This document shows, piece after piece, positions 25,821-32,219 of a stretch of DNA of 39,658 nt (positions are counted from its first letter, which is position 1; each line of letters starts with the position of its first letter). The position numbers and the translations under genes were made by a program. The DNA comes from Pirellulales bacterium. GTDB lineage: Bacteria > Planctomycetota > Planctomycetia > Pirellulales > Pirellulaceae. Location of the stretch: positions 1-39,658 of the forward strand of contig JAKUOW010000017.1 in NCBI GenBank assembly GCA_022451045.1, read 5' to 3'. Below the pieces are notes generated by a model. The model did not search any database. It was not told the origin of the DNA and saw nothing but the letters and a program-made list of their open reading frames with translations.

Positions 25821-26492
25821 TTAGAAGGCAAACGTACCCATGTAGCAACTGCGAGCATTATTCATTTCCCAGCGAGTACCAAGTCCCCTGCCCTTGAATC
25901 CACCTTCGATGGCGACGCCAGCAGCAAGATTCTTTACCGGTGCTAGGGGCGGATAGTAATTTGACTCGTTGGAGCAAACACAATCGCCTTTATTTGCTTT
26001 ACGTGTCTTCAAGCTTACTTCTTTACCCGCTGCAAGGTTTGCCTTGTAGCTGAACAGATCCAGATTCATCTGAATTGGCACATCACTGATTCGAACAACA
26101 TTTTCCGCAGCTTTGCCAGCCCGTTGCTTGGCGAATTCGATCAGCTTATCACGTTGTGCAGAGTTCGCTTTGTCGTCGACCAGAATCACTGACTTAATAG
26201 TCCTAGCGTCCTTTAAGCCTTGGAAAGCAAGCGTATCGGAAGATGCAACCACCAATACAACGCTCAGTCCTTTCAAACTTACCTCATCCATGCTACCGGT
26301 TGTGAATTTCCATGCCATAGTTGCTTCACGACCTGCAAGTCCAATCTCAGCATTGGCAAAACACGGGCCGGTATAAACCTGACATGTCCGGTTTTCCATG
26401 TAGTAGCCGAACAGCCCGTCGGCAGCCTTTGCAGTCAGAGAACTCGAAATGACGGCAATCATGCATAGTACAACTAGTAGATTTCGTCGCAT
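25821..26492 (-). CDS. Secreted DUF1326-like protein
   Basis: A 223-residue protein with a signal peptide (RRNLLVVLCMIAVISSSLTAKA, residues 2-23). The mature N-terminus YYMENRTCQVYTGPCFANAE followed by GLAGREATMAW matches the beginning of DUF1326 proteins as I remember them. Two Cys occur there (RTCQVYTGPC), with a second Cys pair CVC near 170 and a lone Cys near the end (SCYMGTF). Conserved Cys suggest disulfides or metal binding; no reaction is known for DUF1326. It is the last of three leftward genes for secreted proteins that diverge from the molybdenum-hydroxylase operon. It is separated from the middle gene by 118 bases, so it may have its own promoter; AGGATT precedes the start. Confidence 0.75.
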   Translation of the reverse strand: MRRNLLVVLCMIAVISSSLTAKAADGLFGYYMENRTCQVYTGPCFANAEIGLAGREATMAWKFTTGSMDEVSLKGLSVVLVVASSDTLAFQGLKDARTIKSVILVDDKANSAQRDKLIEFAKQRAGKAAENVVRISDVPIQMNLDLFSYKANLAAGKEVSLKTRKANKGDCVCSNESNYYPPLAPVKNLAAGVAIEGGFKGRGLGTRWEMNNARSCYMGTFAF

Positions 26493-26610: not shown

Positions 26611-27126
26611 TCACTTCTTTTTGCGCGGATCAATAACATTTCTCAACCGCAGTTCGATATCACCCTGACAGCAGTCACATGCTTTTAGCTCGTACATCGC
26701 AATCGCACAAATCTCGCACCAGTAATCCAGATGTTTTGCCTGATCATTATCAAGCACGTATACGCGTACCACACGCAGCGGCCCATCCAGTGAGTCCTTG
26801 CGTACGGTAATAATTACCGGGCGGTTGCATAAGCGTTTGTCTTTGCGGAAGGATCTGCCGCGGACGTCCTGATAAAGCTCATGCGGCTGTTTATCCAAAT
26901 CATAAAATACGGGTGTCTGCTCACGACGGAACTGGACCGGCGTAAACCCTAACCGCCTGGCCTCCACGTCATCAACGGTCTTCACAATGCCGGTGAGCAG
27001 AACGGTAGGAGGCAGTGGCTTTTTGGCATCATCAGACAGACCAACCAGCGATAATGATACAAGACCAATACATACCACCAGCAGGATCATATGATTCCTT
27101 GCGAAAATGGAATGCTTATTCTTCAA
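26611..27126 (-). CDS. Secreted or membrane-anchored protein with Cys-rich C-terminus
   Basis: A 171-residue protein. A hydrophobic segment (MILLVVCIGLVSLSLVGL, about residues 13-30) acts as signal peptide or anchor. The middle part is basic. Residues about 136-156 hold five Cys as CEIC-x8-CDCC, ending the protein in a basic KKK. This clustering resembles metal-binding or Fe-S-like motifs, but I know no family with this exact spacing. The start codon is ATG at 27126. It lies 35 bases after the upstream secreted-protein gene, so the two are probably co-transcribed. The location next to a metalloenzyme operon makes a metal-related role possible, but that is speculation. Confidence 0.65.
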   Translation of the reverse strand: MKNKHSIFARNHMILLVVCIGLVSLSLVGLSDDAKKPLPPTVLLTGIVKTVDDVEARRLGFTPVQFRREQTPVFYDLDKQPHELYQDVRGRSFRKDKRLCNRPVIITVRKDSLDGPLRVVRVYVLDNDQAKHLDYWCEICAIAMYELKACDCCQGDIELRLRNVIDPRKKK

Positions 27127-27161: not shown

Positions 27162-27842
27162 TTACTCTGAGGCGTATCCAACCACGACCAAATCGAGAGG
27201 TAGTGGCTTCACTTCATCACCCACCTTGGCATTCGTGTTTAGCCGAACGATCCACCACTCATGCTCTGTGTTCTCGCGGATACTTGGTGCTTTGCTATCA
27301 CCACTAACCTTTTGCAGAGACAGGATGGCGGGATGACTTGACTGTGCAACTTCAGCACTTTGTTCGTTCATTTCGTCACGACTCGCTGGTTTTAGTACCT
27401 TGTCATGCTCTGCGTTCAGCAGCATAAGGAAGTCGCGTGTTGGACTGGTGCCGACGTGAGCACCATCAACAGGTTGGTGTGCGTAACGGAGTGTATAGAC
27501 TCCTGCTTCGATGTCCTGATCCCGAAAATCGCTTCCGCTACGACTGTAGCGAATAACGCCTAGCATTTGGCCTTGAGAAAACGGATAGATGACATCGCCT
27601 TTACCCTTAAGTGCTGGCACAGTTACGCTCTTGAACAACCAGATATCACAAACTTTTCGTGTTTCACCGCGATAGATCGAAATCCCGGTTTCGCTTAGTT
27701 GGGCGGCAACTTCTTTGGAAACACTATCAGCAGGTGCTGACTCTTCAAGCTTTACGATGCGGTGTTCAGCCGCAGACGCGCTGATTTGCGTAAACGCTAC
27801 AAGTGTAAGAGTAGTCAGGGCTGCAAAGAATCGCCGTTGCAT
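27162..27842 (-). CDS. Secreted hypothetical protein
   Basis: A 226-residue protein with a clear signal peptide (RRFFAALTTLTLVAFTQISASA, residues 3-24) and a good AAAGGAAA ribosome-binding site before ATG 27842. The mature part is beta-rich, with IYRGETRKVCDIWLFKSV near 55-72, AGVYTLRYAHQPVDGAHVGT near 113-132, RDFLMLLNAEHD, and HEWWIVRLNTN near 198-208. The V-Y-T-L-R-Y...DG.H.G......D-F-L-L pattern recurs in secreted proteins of planctomycetes and relatives, in my recollection, without assigned function. It is the first gene of the leftward group; the 306-base gap to the molybdenum-hydroxylase operon contains the divergent promoters. Confidence 0.7.
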   Translation of the reverse strand: MQRRFFAALTTLTLVAFTQISASAAEHRIVKLEESAPADSVSKEVAAQLSETGISIYRGETRKVCDIWLFKSVTVPALKGKGDVIYPFSQGQMLGVIRYSRSGSDFRDQDIEAGVYTLRYAHQPVDGAHVGTSPTRDFLMLLNAEHDKVLKPASRDEMNEQSAEVAQSSHPAILSLQKVSGDSKAPSIRENTEHEWWIVRLNTNAKVGDEVKPLPLDLVVVGYASE

Positions 27843-28148: not shown

Positions 28149-28736
28149 ATGTCAGCTTCTTATGAGAAAACTGACGGCTTCAATCGTCGCGCATTCCTCA
28201 AGGGATCCGGCGCTGTTGCCGCGGCCGCGTCGCTTCATCAGCAAGCGAGCGAGGTCTCTGCTGCCGACTCCAAGGAAGTGGTCAGCGGATCAAAGAAAAT
28301 AACACTCAACGTTAATGGTGAAGATGTATCGGTCGAAGTCGAACCGAGAACAACTTTGCTAGAAGCGCTTCGCTACCAACTGGATCTCACCGGTGCCAAA
28401 CCTGTGAGCATGGATGGCAGCAGTGGTGCAAGTACTGTACTGATCAACGGCAAGCCAAAAATGGCTTCAACTACTCTGGCGATTGCATGTCGCAGGAAAG
28501 AGATCACAACGGTTGAAGGTCTTGGTACAGATATCCCGAAAGCATTTGTCGAAGCAGATGCTCAGCAATGCGGGTTCTGCACACCAGGTTTTGTTGTTGC
28601 AGTTTCAGCATTCCTGGATAAAAACCCAGATGCCTCAAATGACGAAATCCGAAACGGACTCAACGGAAATATCTGCCGGTGCGGCACGTACTCCAACGTC
28701 ATTGACGCTGTAACCAACGTTGTGAAGGGAGGCTAA
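28149..28736 (+). CDS. Tat-exported Fe-S subunit of a molybdenum hydroxylase, first cluster lost
   Basis: A 195-residue homologue of the small (2Fe-2S) subunit of the xanthine oxidase family. A Tat signal (NRRAFLKGSGAVAAAAS, about residues 12-28) precedes the plant-ferredoxin-like domain (about 50-115) and the alpha-helical Fe-S domain (about 120-192). In the helical domain the four ligands are present: Cys141 and Cys144 (QCGFCTPG) and Cys176 and Cys178 (ICRCGTY). In the ferredoxin-like domain, where relatives read GCDxGxCGAC and later SCL, this protein reads VSMDGSSGAS and MAST. All four cluster cysteines are therefore serines (87, 92, 95 and 107), while the surrounding framework (LTGAK, TVLINGKP, TLA) is kept. 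Only the cluster nearer the molybdenum site should be assembled. AAGGA precedes ATG 28149. First gene of a four-gene operon. Confidence 0.88.
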   Translation: MSASYEKTDGFNRRAFLKGSGAVAAAASLHQQASEVSAADSKEVVSGSKKITLNVNGEDVSVEVEPRTTLLEALRYQLDLTGAKPVSMDGSSGASTVLINGKPKMASTTLAIACRRKEITTVEGLGTDIPKAFVEADAQQCGFCTPGFVVAVSAFLDKNPDASNDEIRNGLNGNICRCGTYSNVIDAVTNVVKGG

Positions 28737-28738
28737 CA

Positions 28739-30973
28739 ATGGCACAAGTAGAAGATAAACAAGCTCAAGGTCCACAAGGCCCTTACAGCTGGCCGTCCCG
28801 CAAGGACTCCAAAGTGATTGGTAAAAACCATGAACGAATGGACGGTATTGAAAAGAGTACCGGAGCAGCCAAGTACACTTACGACGTCAATCTAAAGAAT
28901 CAGCTGATCGCCAAAGCACTTGGCTCACCGCATGCCCACTGTCGAATCAATGGAATCGATACCACGGCTGCTGAGAAAGTGCCTGGTGTTGTTGACGTCC
29001 ATATCCTGCCACACGCTGAAGCGGGTTCAGAAATCAAATGGCAAGGTGAGCTTTTAGCCATCGTGTCTGCTGAATCTGAAGGCGCTGCTGCTGAAGGCGT
29101 CGATGCACTGAAGGTTGATTACGAAGTACTCGAGAGCTTTACTTCCGACAGCGATTTGAAAGGTGCAGAGGAAGCCGGTGTCACGGCACGTGGTGGTGGA
29201 AAGGTCGAGACCGTCAATGAGCCGGGCGACGATGATGACGAAGATGAATGGGTAGACGCTGAAATCGAGCGGTTATTCAAGGAATCCAAGCACGTCGTAG
29301 AAGGTTACTACGGTATCGATGCGATTACACACTGTTGCCTTGAGCCTCACGGAAGTACGGTTGCTTGGGAAGGCGATAAACTAAAGGCCTATCTATCCAC
29401 GCAAAATGTCTCCGGCACCGACGAGGGATTTGCAAACGACTTGGAAATCTCTGCTGACAGCGTCGATGTCGAATGCACTTACATTGGGGGTGGATTTGGA
29501 AGCAAGTTTGCACCCGATTACTGGGGCATTGCAGCCGCTCGAATCTCAAAACGGACCGGACGGCCTGTGAAGCTCATGCTTTCACGCGATCAAGAACTCA
29601 AGCTTGGTGGAAACCGACCATCTGGTTATCTGCAAGTTAAGCTTGGTGCTAACGCCGACGGCGTTGTCCAGGTTTGGGATTCGCATCACTGGGGTACTTC
29701 TGGTGTAAGTGGTAGTGGCGTAAGTCATACAGTTGTGCCGTATGTTTTAGTACCACCGAATTACCGCCGGAAAGCAACTGCTGTTCGAACCAATCTGGTT
29801 CGTGCCAGAGCATGGCGTGCTCCCAACCATCCACAAGCATGTGCCATAACGCAAACTGCGATTGATGACCTCGCTGCTACGATGGGCAAGGATAGCTATG
29901 ACGTATTCATGGCTAATCTGGTCAATGCGAACAATGAAAAGGCTGATGTATACGCCGAAGAGATGAAGATCGGTGCAAAACTGATCGACTGGAAGGCCAA
30001 ATGGCATCCACACGGTAAAGGTGAACGCAACGGTTCCATCGTGGAAGGGCTTGGAATGGCACTTCACACCTGGGGCGGCGTTGCCAACACAAGCGAATGT
30101 ACCGTAAAGATTCATCCAGACGGTGGCGTAAGCAGTTTCTGCGGCACGCAAGATATTGGATCCGGAACAAAGACGGTTTGTGCCATGGTTCTCGCCGAGA
30201 CACTCGGGTTATCGACGAATCAGGTGACCGTTAACTACGGAAGTTCCACTTATCCGTTCTCCGGAGCATCTGGTGGTAGTACAACCGTCGGTGCTGTATC
30301 CGAATCGCACCGTCGTGCAGCAACAGATGCACTCACTGTTCTTAAGGGAAAAGTTGCTGAGAAGATCGGCGCGGATGCCGGAACACTGGTTGCTTCTGAC
30401 GGACGCATCCATGTGGCAGGTAACAAGGACAAAGGACTTGGCTGGAAAGAAGCCTGTGGTCTTCTTGGACTTAAGCCGCTGGAGATTACACGAGGTCACA
30501 CTCGTGGTGATGCCAGCCCGCTTTCCAATAGCGGCGTTGGCGGTGTCCAGATGGCACACGTCTGTGTCGATCTCGATACCGGTGTTGTGAAGATGAAAGA
30601 GTTCGTGGCCGTTCAGGATCAAGGACTCGTCATCAACCCGGTCACTTGCAAGAGCCAAATCTACGGTGCGGTCATCATGGGCATCGCCGCTGCTCTTTAC
30701 GAGCAACGCATTGCTGATCCGGCCACCGGAGCATTACTTAACGCGGAACTTGCTGATTACCAACTCGCCCGACTTGGCGATATTGGCGATATCAAGATCG
30801 AACTTTACGAACCAGAATCAGAACGTCAGCGTGGCGTCATTGGTAATGGTGAGCCTCCGGCAATCAGTCCGGTTGCTGCGATCTCCAATGCAGTTGCCAA
30901 TGCGATCGGTGCCCGTGTTTCCACGGCACCATACACACCACAAAGAGTTCTTGAAGCACTTAAGAACGCTTAA
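28739..30973 (+). CDS. Molybdopterin-binding large subunit of a molybdenum hydroxylase
   Basis: A 744-residue large subunit of the xanthine dehydrogenase/aldehyde oxidase family. The start lies 2 bases after the small-subunit stop, with GGGAGG as ribosome-binding site. Domain 1 (about residues 30-150) holds GKNHERMDGIEKSTGAAKYTYD. An acidic insertion DDDDEDE lies near 160. The Mo-cofactor part begins with THCCLEPHGSTVAW near 199, then YIGGGFGSKF near 250 and RARAWRAPNHPQA near 356. The C-terminal catalytic glutamate is present in GNGEPPAISP (Glu705). It has no signal peptide and is probably exported in complex with the Tat-bearing small subunit. The substrate (aldehyde, purine, N-heterocycle or CO) cannot be read. 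The CO-dehydrogenase active-site loop with Cys (VAYRC) is absent. Confidence 0.92.
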   Translation: MAQVEDKQAQGPQGPYSWPSRKDSKVIGKNHERMDGIEKSTGAAKYTYDVNLKNQLIAKALGSPHAHCRINGIDTTAAEKVPGVVDVHILPHAEAGSEIKWQGELLAIVSAESEGAAAEGVDALKVDYEVLESFTSDSDLKGAEEAGVTARGGGKVETVNEPGDDDDEDEWVDAEIERLFKESKHVVEGYYGIDAITHCCLEPHGSTVAWEGDKLKAYLSTQNVSGTDEGFANDLEISADSVDVECTYIGGGFGSKFAPDYWGIAAARISKRTGRPVKLMLSRDQELKLGGNRPSGYLQVKLGANADGVVQVWDSHHWGTSGVSGSGVSHTVVPYVLVPPNYRRKATAVRTNLVRARAWRAPNHPQACAITQTAIDDLAATMGKDSYDVFMANLVNANNEKADVYAEEMKIGAKLIDWKAKWHPHGKGERNGSIVEGLGMALHTWGGVANTSECTVKIHPDGGVSSFCGTQDIGSGTKTVCAMVLAETLGLSTNQVTVNYGSSTYPFSGASGGSTTVGAVSESHRRAATDALTVLKGKVAEKIGADAGTLVASDGRIHVAGNKDKGLGWKEACGLLGLKPLEITRGHTRGDASPLSNSGVGGVQMAHVCVDLDTGVVKMKEFVAVQDQGLVINPVTCKSQIYGAVIMGIAAALYEQRIADPATGALLNAELADYQLARLGDIGDIKIELYEPESERQRGVIGNGEPPAISPVAAISNAVANAIGARVSTAPYTPQRVLEALKNA

Positions 30974-30993: not shown

Positions 30994-31980
30994 ATGAAAG
31001 CGTTTGAATATACCGAACCACGTACCGAATCGGATGCCGTTGCCCTGCTGTCTGAACAGCCAGGCCACACGGAAATCCTTGCCGGTGGTACAGATTTAGT
31101 TGGCCTGATGAAAAAGATGATCATCAAGCCAGAGCGTGTTGTAAACATTATGGAGATCCAGTCTCTCCAGAATATCGAGCAGTTGGAGGATGGCTCCGTT
31201 GTCATCGGCGCTGCTGTGACTCTGGATGAAATCCTGGCATTTCCATACATGGAAAACTATCCGGCTGTAACGGATGCCATCCTTGGCATAAATAGCATGC
31301 AGCTTCAGTCGCAGGGAACGATAGGTGGCGAAATCTGCCAACGTCCCCGCTGCTGGTTCTTTAGGAACGGCACGGGACTTTTGGACGACAAACAGGTGGT
31401 CGAAGGTGATAACCGTTATCACGCGATCCTTGGGAATACCGGGGCGGCGAAGTACGTTTCCGGAAGTCGAATTGGGCCTGCCCTAATCGCTCTTGGTGCA
31501 CAAGTCCGCTTAGTTGGACCTAACGACCAGGAGCAAATCATTCCGGTGGCTGAATTTTTCCGAACACCACGTAGCGAACATCATCGCGAAACGGTTCTGG
31601 ATTCAAATCAGTTATTAACGCACTTGATTTTGCCTGCGAAACAATCGGCGACCAACGCCACGTACGAAGTACGTCACGGTGCTGGTCCTGAGTATCCACT
31701 TGCAGCAGCAGCCGCTGAATTGGAAATGGATGCCAATGGCATTGTTCGTAAAGCTAGTGTTGTGATGGGACAAGTTGCACCAACCCCGTGGGTTTCTGCT
31801 GAAGCCGTTCAGGTGTTGGTCGGCAAACCGGTTACCCCTGAAGTTGCGGAAGCAGCAGGACGTGCCGCAGTCGCACCGGCAACACCACTATCGCAAAATG
31901 AATATAAAGTCCAAATGTCGATGGTTGCCGTCAAACGCGCAATCCTTCGGGCTGCTGGCTTGGAAACGGGAGGTTTTTAA
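30994..31980 (+). CDS. FAD-binding medium subunit of a molybdenum hydroxylase
   Basis: A 328-residue protein of the CO dehydrogenase flavoprotein type, with GGGAGG before ATG 30994. The PCMH-type FAD-binding motifs are ILAGGTDLVGLMKK (about residues 28-41) and a second loop GTIGGEICQRPRCWFFRNG (about 109-127). The C-terminal CODH-like domain covers about 220-325. In PaoB/YagS-type relatives the region after QRxRCxxFR carries further Cys that bind an extra [4Fe-4S] cluster. Here the first Cys is kept (QRPRC), but the others are replaced (GLLDDKQVVEGDN and GNTGAAKYV), so that cluster should be absent. The FAD would normally receive electrons from the Fe-S subunit. It lies 20 bases after the large subunit and ends 2 bases before the next gene's ATG. 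Confidence 0.88.
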   Translation: MKAFEYTEPRTESDAVALLSEQPGHTEILAGGTDLVGLMKKMIIKPERVVNIMEIQSLQNIEQLEDGSVVIGAAVTLDEILAFPYMENYPAVTDAILGINSMQLQSQGTIGGEICQRPRCWFFRNGTGLLDDKQVVEGDNRYHAILGNTGAAKYVSGSRIGPALIALGAQVRLVGPNDQEQIIPVAEFFRTPRSEHHRETVLDSNQLLTHLILPAKQSATNATYEVRHGAGPEYPLAAAAAELEMDANGIVRKASVVMGQVAPTPWVSAEAVQVLVGKPVTPEVAEAAGRAAVAPATPLSQNEYKVQMSMVAVKRAILRAAGLETGGF

Positions 31981-31982
31981 TC

Positions 31983-32219
31983 ATGGCATTTGAAAAGAAT
32001 TACGAAGTACCCGGTCTGACCGACAAACCCGCTTGCATTCATCTGCGAAGCAAGGCGATGTACGTGACAGGAAGTCTCTACAAGCCTGACCATCCGGATG
32101 AAGAAGGTGCTCAATATTGCTGGTGTAATGTCACCCAGCATATCGTCGGACCTGACCAGGAAGATGTAAACCGTTGTGATTGCACCAGCAACCGAGGTTG
32201 CTATAAGAATTACTCCTAG
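31983..32219 (+). CDS. Small six-cysteine protein in the molybdenum-hydroxylase operon
   Basis: A 78-residue protein of unknown family, translated from ATG 31983 with a very strong GGGAGG site inside the end of the medium-subunit gene. It has six Cys at positions 18, 46, 48, 65, 67 and 73 (pattern C-x27-C-x-C-x16-C-x-C-x5-C), with His20, His37 and His53 as further possible ligands. It has no signal peptide and no hydrophobic segment. The two CxC pairs suggest metal or Fe-S binding. It is the last gene before a strong terminator, so it belongs to the operon. It could be an electron carrier, a fourth subunit or an assembly factor; none can be chosen from sequence alone. Confidence 0.75.
   Translation: MAFEKNYEVPGLTDKPACIHLRSKAMYVTGSLYKPDHPDEEGAQYCWCNVTQHIVGPDQEDVNRCDCTSNRGCYKNYS

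Follow-up and report, generated by a model that had tools for sequence, protein, structure and literature searches.

Enzymes of the xanthine oxidase family pass electrons along a chain that runs from the molybdenum centre to FeSI, then to FeSII, and from there to FAD. FAD subunits of the PaoB type also carry a Cys-rich insert in which four cysteines hold a [4Fe-4S] cluster. Redox values for the centres of the family chain are available (PMC8097209). Among solved structures the best relatives of all three subunits of the operon described here are 5g5g, the periplasmic aldehyde oxidoreductase PaoABC of Escherichia coli, and 5y6q, an aldehyde oxidase from Methylobacillus. A shortened chain is known from the Desulfovibrio gigas aldehyde oxidoreductase (MOP), in which the FAD domain has been dropped, both [2Fe-2S] clusters are kept, and flavodoxin is the flavin partner (PMC10223205).

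Architecture of the operon

The window is the whole stretch of DNA analyzed, 39,658 nucleotides of a Pirellulales bacterium contig (JAKUOW010000017.1), and contains a molybdenum hydroxylase operon with the gene order small, large and FAD subunit (S-L-F). Its features are as follows.

28149-28736, plus strand: small (Fe-S) subunit, 195 aa, with a Tat signal; FeSII ligands replaced, FeSI ligands kept
28401-28472, plus strand: former FeSII loops, residues 85-108 (PVSMDGSSGAST ... MAST); dN/dS 0.00-0.30 in close pairs of FeSII-lost relatives
28566-28691, plus strand: FeSI region with Cys141/Cys144 and Cys176/Cys178; CCCC in 144/144 rows
28739-30973, plus strand: large, Moco-binding subunit with Pfam domains MoCoBD_1, MoCoBD_2 and Ald_Xan_dh_C
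30994-31980, plus strand: FAD subunit with Pfam domains FAD_binding_5 (PF00941) and CO_deh_flav_C (PF03450)
31983-32219, plus strand: 78-aa Cys-rich ORF directly 3' of the FAD gene, with relatives at the same place in other operons

The small subunit ORF (28149-28736, plus strand) translates to GAKPVSMDGSSGASTVLINGKPKMASTTLA. The positions of FeSII, the N-terminal, FAD-side [2Fe-2S] cluster, are occupied by Ser87, Ser92, Ser95 and Ser107, and those of the inner cluster, FeSI, by Cys141, Cys144, Cys176 and Cys178. The translation confirms the original prediction of Ser at all four FeSII ligands and Cys at all four FeSI ligands, and the serine codons (AGC, AGT, AGT and TCA) are the same as those given there. 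Pfam identifies a Fer2_2 domain (PF01799, E 3.5e-26) with the FeSI cysteines typical of the xanthine oxidase family, as well as a TAT_signal (PF10518; RRAFLKGSG) such as marks the exported PaoABC; there is no Pfam match to a Fer2 domain in the small subunit, and the four FeSII cysteines of the family are absent. The earlier proposal that the FeSII site has been lost in an exported (Tat) complex is well supported. The predicted fold of the small subunit is retained (pLDDT 79), with 5y6q_A as the best PDB match (TM 0.82 on target) and PaoA (5g5g_A) in the next group of fold matches.

Motif comparison shows that the large subunit keeps GGGFGSK, QDIGSGTKT, GASGGSTT and the glutamate of GNGE, matching the Moco motifs and the catalytic Glu expected in the xanthine oxidase family (GGGFGSK, QD[IL]G.GT, GGSTT and G[NL]GE); its closest solved relative is PaoC (5g5h/5g5g). 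The FAD subunit keeps AGGTDL and T[IVL]GGEL, in agreement with the motifs AGG[TN]DL and T[IVL]GG, which are not universal in the family, and its model (pLDDT 87) has TM scores of 0.85-0.87 on PaoB (5g5g_B) and 5y6q_B. Of the [4Fe-4S] insert only Cys115 and Cys120 (CQRPRC, window positions 31336-31353) are left, compared with four cysteines in PaoB-type subunits. This two-Cys remnant is common to the window, to both groups of FeSII-lost relatives and to the intact sisters described below; because the insert is reduced in intact sisters too, the [4Fe-4S] cluster was gone before FeSII was lost, and its loss was rejected as a partner event. Cys120 is invariant in all 130 FAD-subunit rows examined, and Cys115 is missing in many. 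An XdhC gene and a MocA-like gene adjoin each other on contig C367 of the same genome.

Distribution of FeSII loss among relatives

The main set of relatives consists of 144 small-subunit rows, a few of which duplicate one contig. FeSI is CCCC throughout. At FeSII 61 rows are CCCC too, and the remaining 83 of the 144 retain one Cys or none; two or three are found in none of the 144, and such intermediates would be either not tolerated or short-lived. A Rhodopirellula sp. MAG, another assembly from the same genus, encodes an identical small subunit; this identical protein, together with FeSII loss in relatives at 58-72% identity from more than 30 other genomes, rules out sequencing error.

Within the family about 35 of 199 genomes contain a relative at 59-72% identity, and within the order 40 of 297 do. 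All of the Pirellulales-type relatives read have lost the FeSII ligand set and kept FeSI; SSSS is the commonest FeSII state, and TSSS, SSSN, SSCN, SSCS, STSS, CSAN, CSSA, SCSA, SAAD, SSAA and AVSG also occur. The sisters at 47-53% identity (Acidobacteriota, Verrucomicrobiota, Hydrogenedentota and other Planctomycetota) have CCCC at the same four columns in 47/47 rows, which rules out chance, and the more distant relatives are CCCC too. Another planctomycete family from this class, referred to here as f21, is a mosaic, its 72 distinct small subunits comprising 38 that are CCCC and 34 that are FeSII-lost. The Ser type accounts for 4 of these 34, and the other lost states are QDDG, KDDG, EDDS, DSDS, DDDG, FSDS, SDDS, EADN, DTDS, ELDG, DVDG, DADG and GDDG. 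Lost and intact forms alternate among near relatives with the same S-L-F operon.

The presence of the same residue at every ligand had been viewed as part of an argument against random decay. Identical Ser describes the window and the state seen most often, but clade-wide the four positions may hold S, T, A, N, D, G or V and sometimes one C. As a sign of design it does not stand, since Ser87, Ser92 and Ser95 are nearly always encoded by AGY in the Pirellulales group, one base from the TGY codons of Cys, and other letters are seen in relatives. Judged from these alignments, the conserved trait is the absence of the FeSII ligand set, not serine. The altered loop could nevertheless bind a different metal or group through Ser/Asp ligands and still relay electrons, as its strong constraint might suggest (DGSSGAST in the Ser group and Asp95 in 17/17 lost f21 rows), but the letters at the four positions differ by lineage (SSSS, SAAD, AVSG, CSAN, QDDG and FSDS) and we know of no redox relay with Ser/Asp ligands of this kind, making this very improbable. 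The same variation rules out a conserved Ser as a metal ligand across the clade.

In FSDS/YSDS small subunits (L213, L217-L219, L247 and L251) the former cluster loop has a one-residue insertion and a stray Cys (DTTSCSG[ST]DTV), as if its geometry were no longer held by a cluster. In one planctomycete MAG (L283; G813:C142) the gene for a CCCC small subunit contains an in-frame TAA, which may reflect a pseudogene or an assembly error. Fuerstiella MAGs contain a second, more distant molybdenum hydroxylase operon (L060:767-4536, L064:768-4894 and L076:1-3638) on the opposite strand and about 4 kb from the FeSII-free operon; its small subunit scores 109-113 bits against the window protein.

Selection and co-variation

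In about 15 close pairs of FeSII-lost relatives, the large subunit has dN/dS values of 0.02-0.17 and the FAD subunit values of 0.04-0.21; those of the Fer2 domain are 0.01-0.34 and those of the former cluster loop (residues 84-108), where computable, 0.00-0.30. Intact pairs fall in the same low range. Purifying selection on all parts and clade-wide fixation argue for a functional, recurrently FeSII-free molybdenum hydroxylase and not for decay, as the original prediction had held. That the operon is decaying, or that the sequence is an artefact, is scarcely credible given the clade-wide fixation, the intact reading frames, dN/dS values far below 1 and the identical copy in a second assembly. 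This is almost certainly a functional enzyme that lacks the FeSII site.

At the threshold applied, no column of the large or FAD subunit distinguishes f21 rows that have lost FeSII from those that are intact. Within the small subunit the four ligand columns separate them fully and columns 45, 91 and 120 do so partly and weakly, so that there is no sign of the enzyme having been retooled for a new partner. Conservation of the FAD motifs is equal in the intact rows, the sisters and the lost rows of the Pirellulales group, and the first FAD motif is somewhat eroded in the lost f21 rows (G31 to A/S in 5/17, and T33 to M/I in 3/17).

History of the loss

Trees were constructed from the large and FAD subunits (L+F), with the trait-bearing small subunit excluded. 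A careful L+F tree of 52 rows contains five state changes, at least four of which are forced by well-supported branches, and a quick L+F tree of 98 rows contains six, of which at least five are forced; the small-subunit tree with ligand loops removed has five changes. A single origin of the loss is present in no bootstrap tree, either for L+F or for the small subunit. Placing all lost rows in one clade is ruled out on L+F (delta lnL 453, p-AU 4e-11), although the small subunit alone does not reject it (p-AU 0.10). FeSII was apparently lost several times over. The nearest relatives of the FSDS pair L247/L251 in the small subunit are the intact L246/L248; the large and FAD subunits group the pair with these and with the intact L260, a placement near intact rows in all subunits that fits an independent loss.

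An alternative to repeated independent losses is that FeSII was lost once, long ago, and that intact copies later took the place of the small subunit on several occasions. In its favour, Asp95 requires two base changes from a Cys codon and yet is present in every lost f21 row of the tree set, and the small subunit data tolerate one lost clade as noted above; the position of the FSDS pair beside intact rows and the lack of any bootstrap tree with one origin point the other way, and we regard this history as unlikely. The f21 switches other than L247/L251 may nonetheless reflect small-subunit replacement.

Conserved neighbours and a possible exit at FeSI

Three genes for secreted proteins lie to the left of the operon and are conserved neighbours.

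25821-26492, minus strand: DUF1326 secreted protein (Pfam PF07040, E 1.1e-9)
26611-27126, minus strand: secreted 171-aa protein with a C-terminal YWCxxCxI...CxCCQ
27162-27842, minus strand: secreted 226-aa protein, divergent here and on the same strand as the operon in most relatives

All three genes accompany many lost operons, and the DUF1326 and 226-aa genes also accompany most sisters. Among operons with a DUF1326 gene, the 171-aa gene is present in nearly all of the lost ones and is much rarer in those that are CCCC. The 171-aa protein family (YxCxxCxI...CxCC[QR]) corresponds to no Pfam family and is encoded beside PaoABC-like operons, more often FeSII-free ones. Relatives of the 78-aa Cys-rich ORF at the other end of the operon, which has no Pfam match, are present in 14 operons, 10 lost and 4 intact.

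These neighbours bear on the proposal that the FeSII-free enzyme is functional and that electrons leave at FeSI for an external periplasmic acceptor, with FAD being structural or vestigial. The acceptor may be a cytochrome, a cupredoxin or a conserved secreted neighbour such as the 171-aa protein (CxxC...CxCCQ), docking at the former FeSII relay site. The conservation of three secreted proteins beside the operon and the skewed occurrence of the Cys-rich 171-aa gene are consistent with such an exit, and the acceptor of PaoABC itself is not known (PMC3958847). However, the same neighbours are found beside intact sisters, no surface residue co-varies with the loss, and the FAD motifs are conserved. 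There is also no cytochrome (CxxCH) gene consistently linked to the operons, and a linked cytochrome was rejected as the new acceptor on this ground. An exit at FeSI is thus possible, although we think it rather unlikely. It is quite doubtful that electrons have been re-routed at FeSI, bypassing both FeSII and FAD, towards a periplasmic partner of the enzyme's own, perhaps the Cys-rich neighbour, and that such an arrangement arose several times; co-occurrence of the 171-aa gene hints only weakly at a partner.

Proposed direct electron transfer from FeSI to FAD

With the FeSII site lost and the rest of the enzyme under selection, electrons need a route unlike that of textbook family members. 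The reading we prefer, with a probability of a little under one half, is that the operon encodes a PaoABC-type molybdenum hydroxylase that is exported by Tat and works without FeSII, and in which electrons would pass directly from FeSI to FAD. The substrate would be hydroxylated at the molybdenum and electrons would reach FeSI one at a time, as we infer from the invariance of the FeSI ligands; they would then move to FAD in the neighbouring subunit by direct, longer tunnelling over an estimated 18-22 Å. This FeSI-FAD distance is our own estimate, from published XO spacings. The step would be slow, yet enough for a low-turnover periplasmic enzyme, and FeSII would be an optional accelerator that was lost in several planctomycete lineages.

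Rates computed for direct FeSI-FAD transfer with the Moser-Dutton formula for electron tunnelling (PMC8097209) are approximately 20-600 per s at 18 Å, 1-40 per s at 20 Å and approximately 0.1-2 per s at 22 Å, and beyond 22 Å they are at most a few per s. Fast electron transfer is usually limited to 14 Å (PMC8097209), and this rule of thumb speaks against direct transfer, as does the eroded first FAD motif in some of the lost f21 rows. Conversely, retention of the FAD site without compensating changes slightly favours it, and since the FAD site is intact and no residue of the large or FAD subunits co-varies with the loss, a new exit is no more likely than direct transfer.

The loss of FeSII without compensation elsewhere would also be expected if the reaction involved no net export of electrons – a transhydroxylation, an isomerisation or a molybdenum-local cycle – with FeSI serving for assembly only and FeSII being dispensable. 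This is improbable, given that FeSI is invariant across the whole set of small subunits and that the FAD subunit is under strong selection.

Comparison with known systems

No FeSII-free member of the family was found described in the open-access literature, a coverage that is incomplete for subscription papers. The four-centre chain of Mo, FeSI, FeSII and FAD has been treated as the core of the family, and in the planctomycete operons nature has repeatedly removed FeSII and nothing else from it, leaving the FAD subunit in place. Pairs of lost and intact operons (for example, L247/L251 and L246/L248) offer a ready test of the role of FeSII and of the tunnelling distance. Annotation of these proteins as two-cluster small subunits would give the wrong cofactor content for a large planctomycete group.

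The best NCBIfam models are of the PaoA, PaoC and 4-HBCR/XDH types, all far below their cut-offs, and the equivalog scores are 141/322 bits for PaoA and 294/1180 bits for PaoC. The enzyme is treated here as a novel variant within the xanthine oxidase family and not as a PaoABC member. Common to this enzyme and to PaoABC and 5y6q are the three subunits, the Tat signal on the Fe-S subunit, FeSI, and the folds of the FAD and Moco subunits; PaoA, however, binds two [2Fe-2S] clusters, and the small subunit here is without the FeSII site. The sister operons of Acidobacteriota, Verrucomicrobiota and Hydrogenedentota (L086-L133) are closer, with a 47-53% identical small subunit, the same S-L-F order, DUF1326 and 226-aa neighbours, and a [4Fe-4S] insert that is already reduced as it is here, but unlike the window they have FeSII as CCCC. 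The D. gigas aldehyde oxidoreductase has also dropped one link of the chain; it is shortened at the FAD end, whereas in the planctomycete enzyme it is FeSII, the link before FAD, that is gone and the FAD subunit that is kept.
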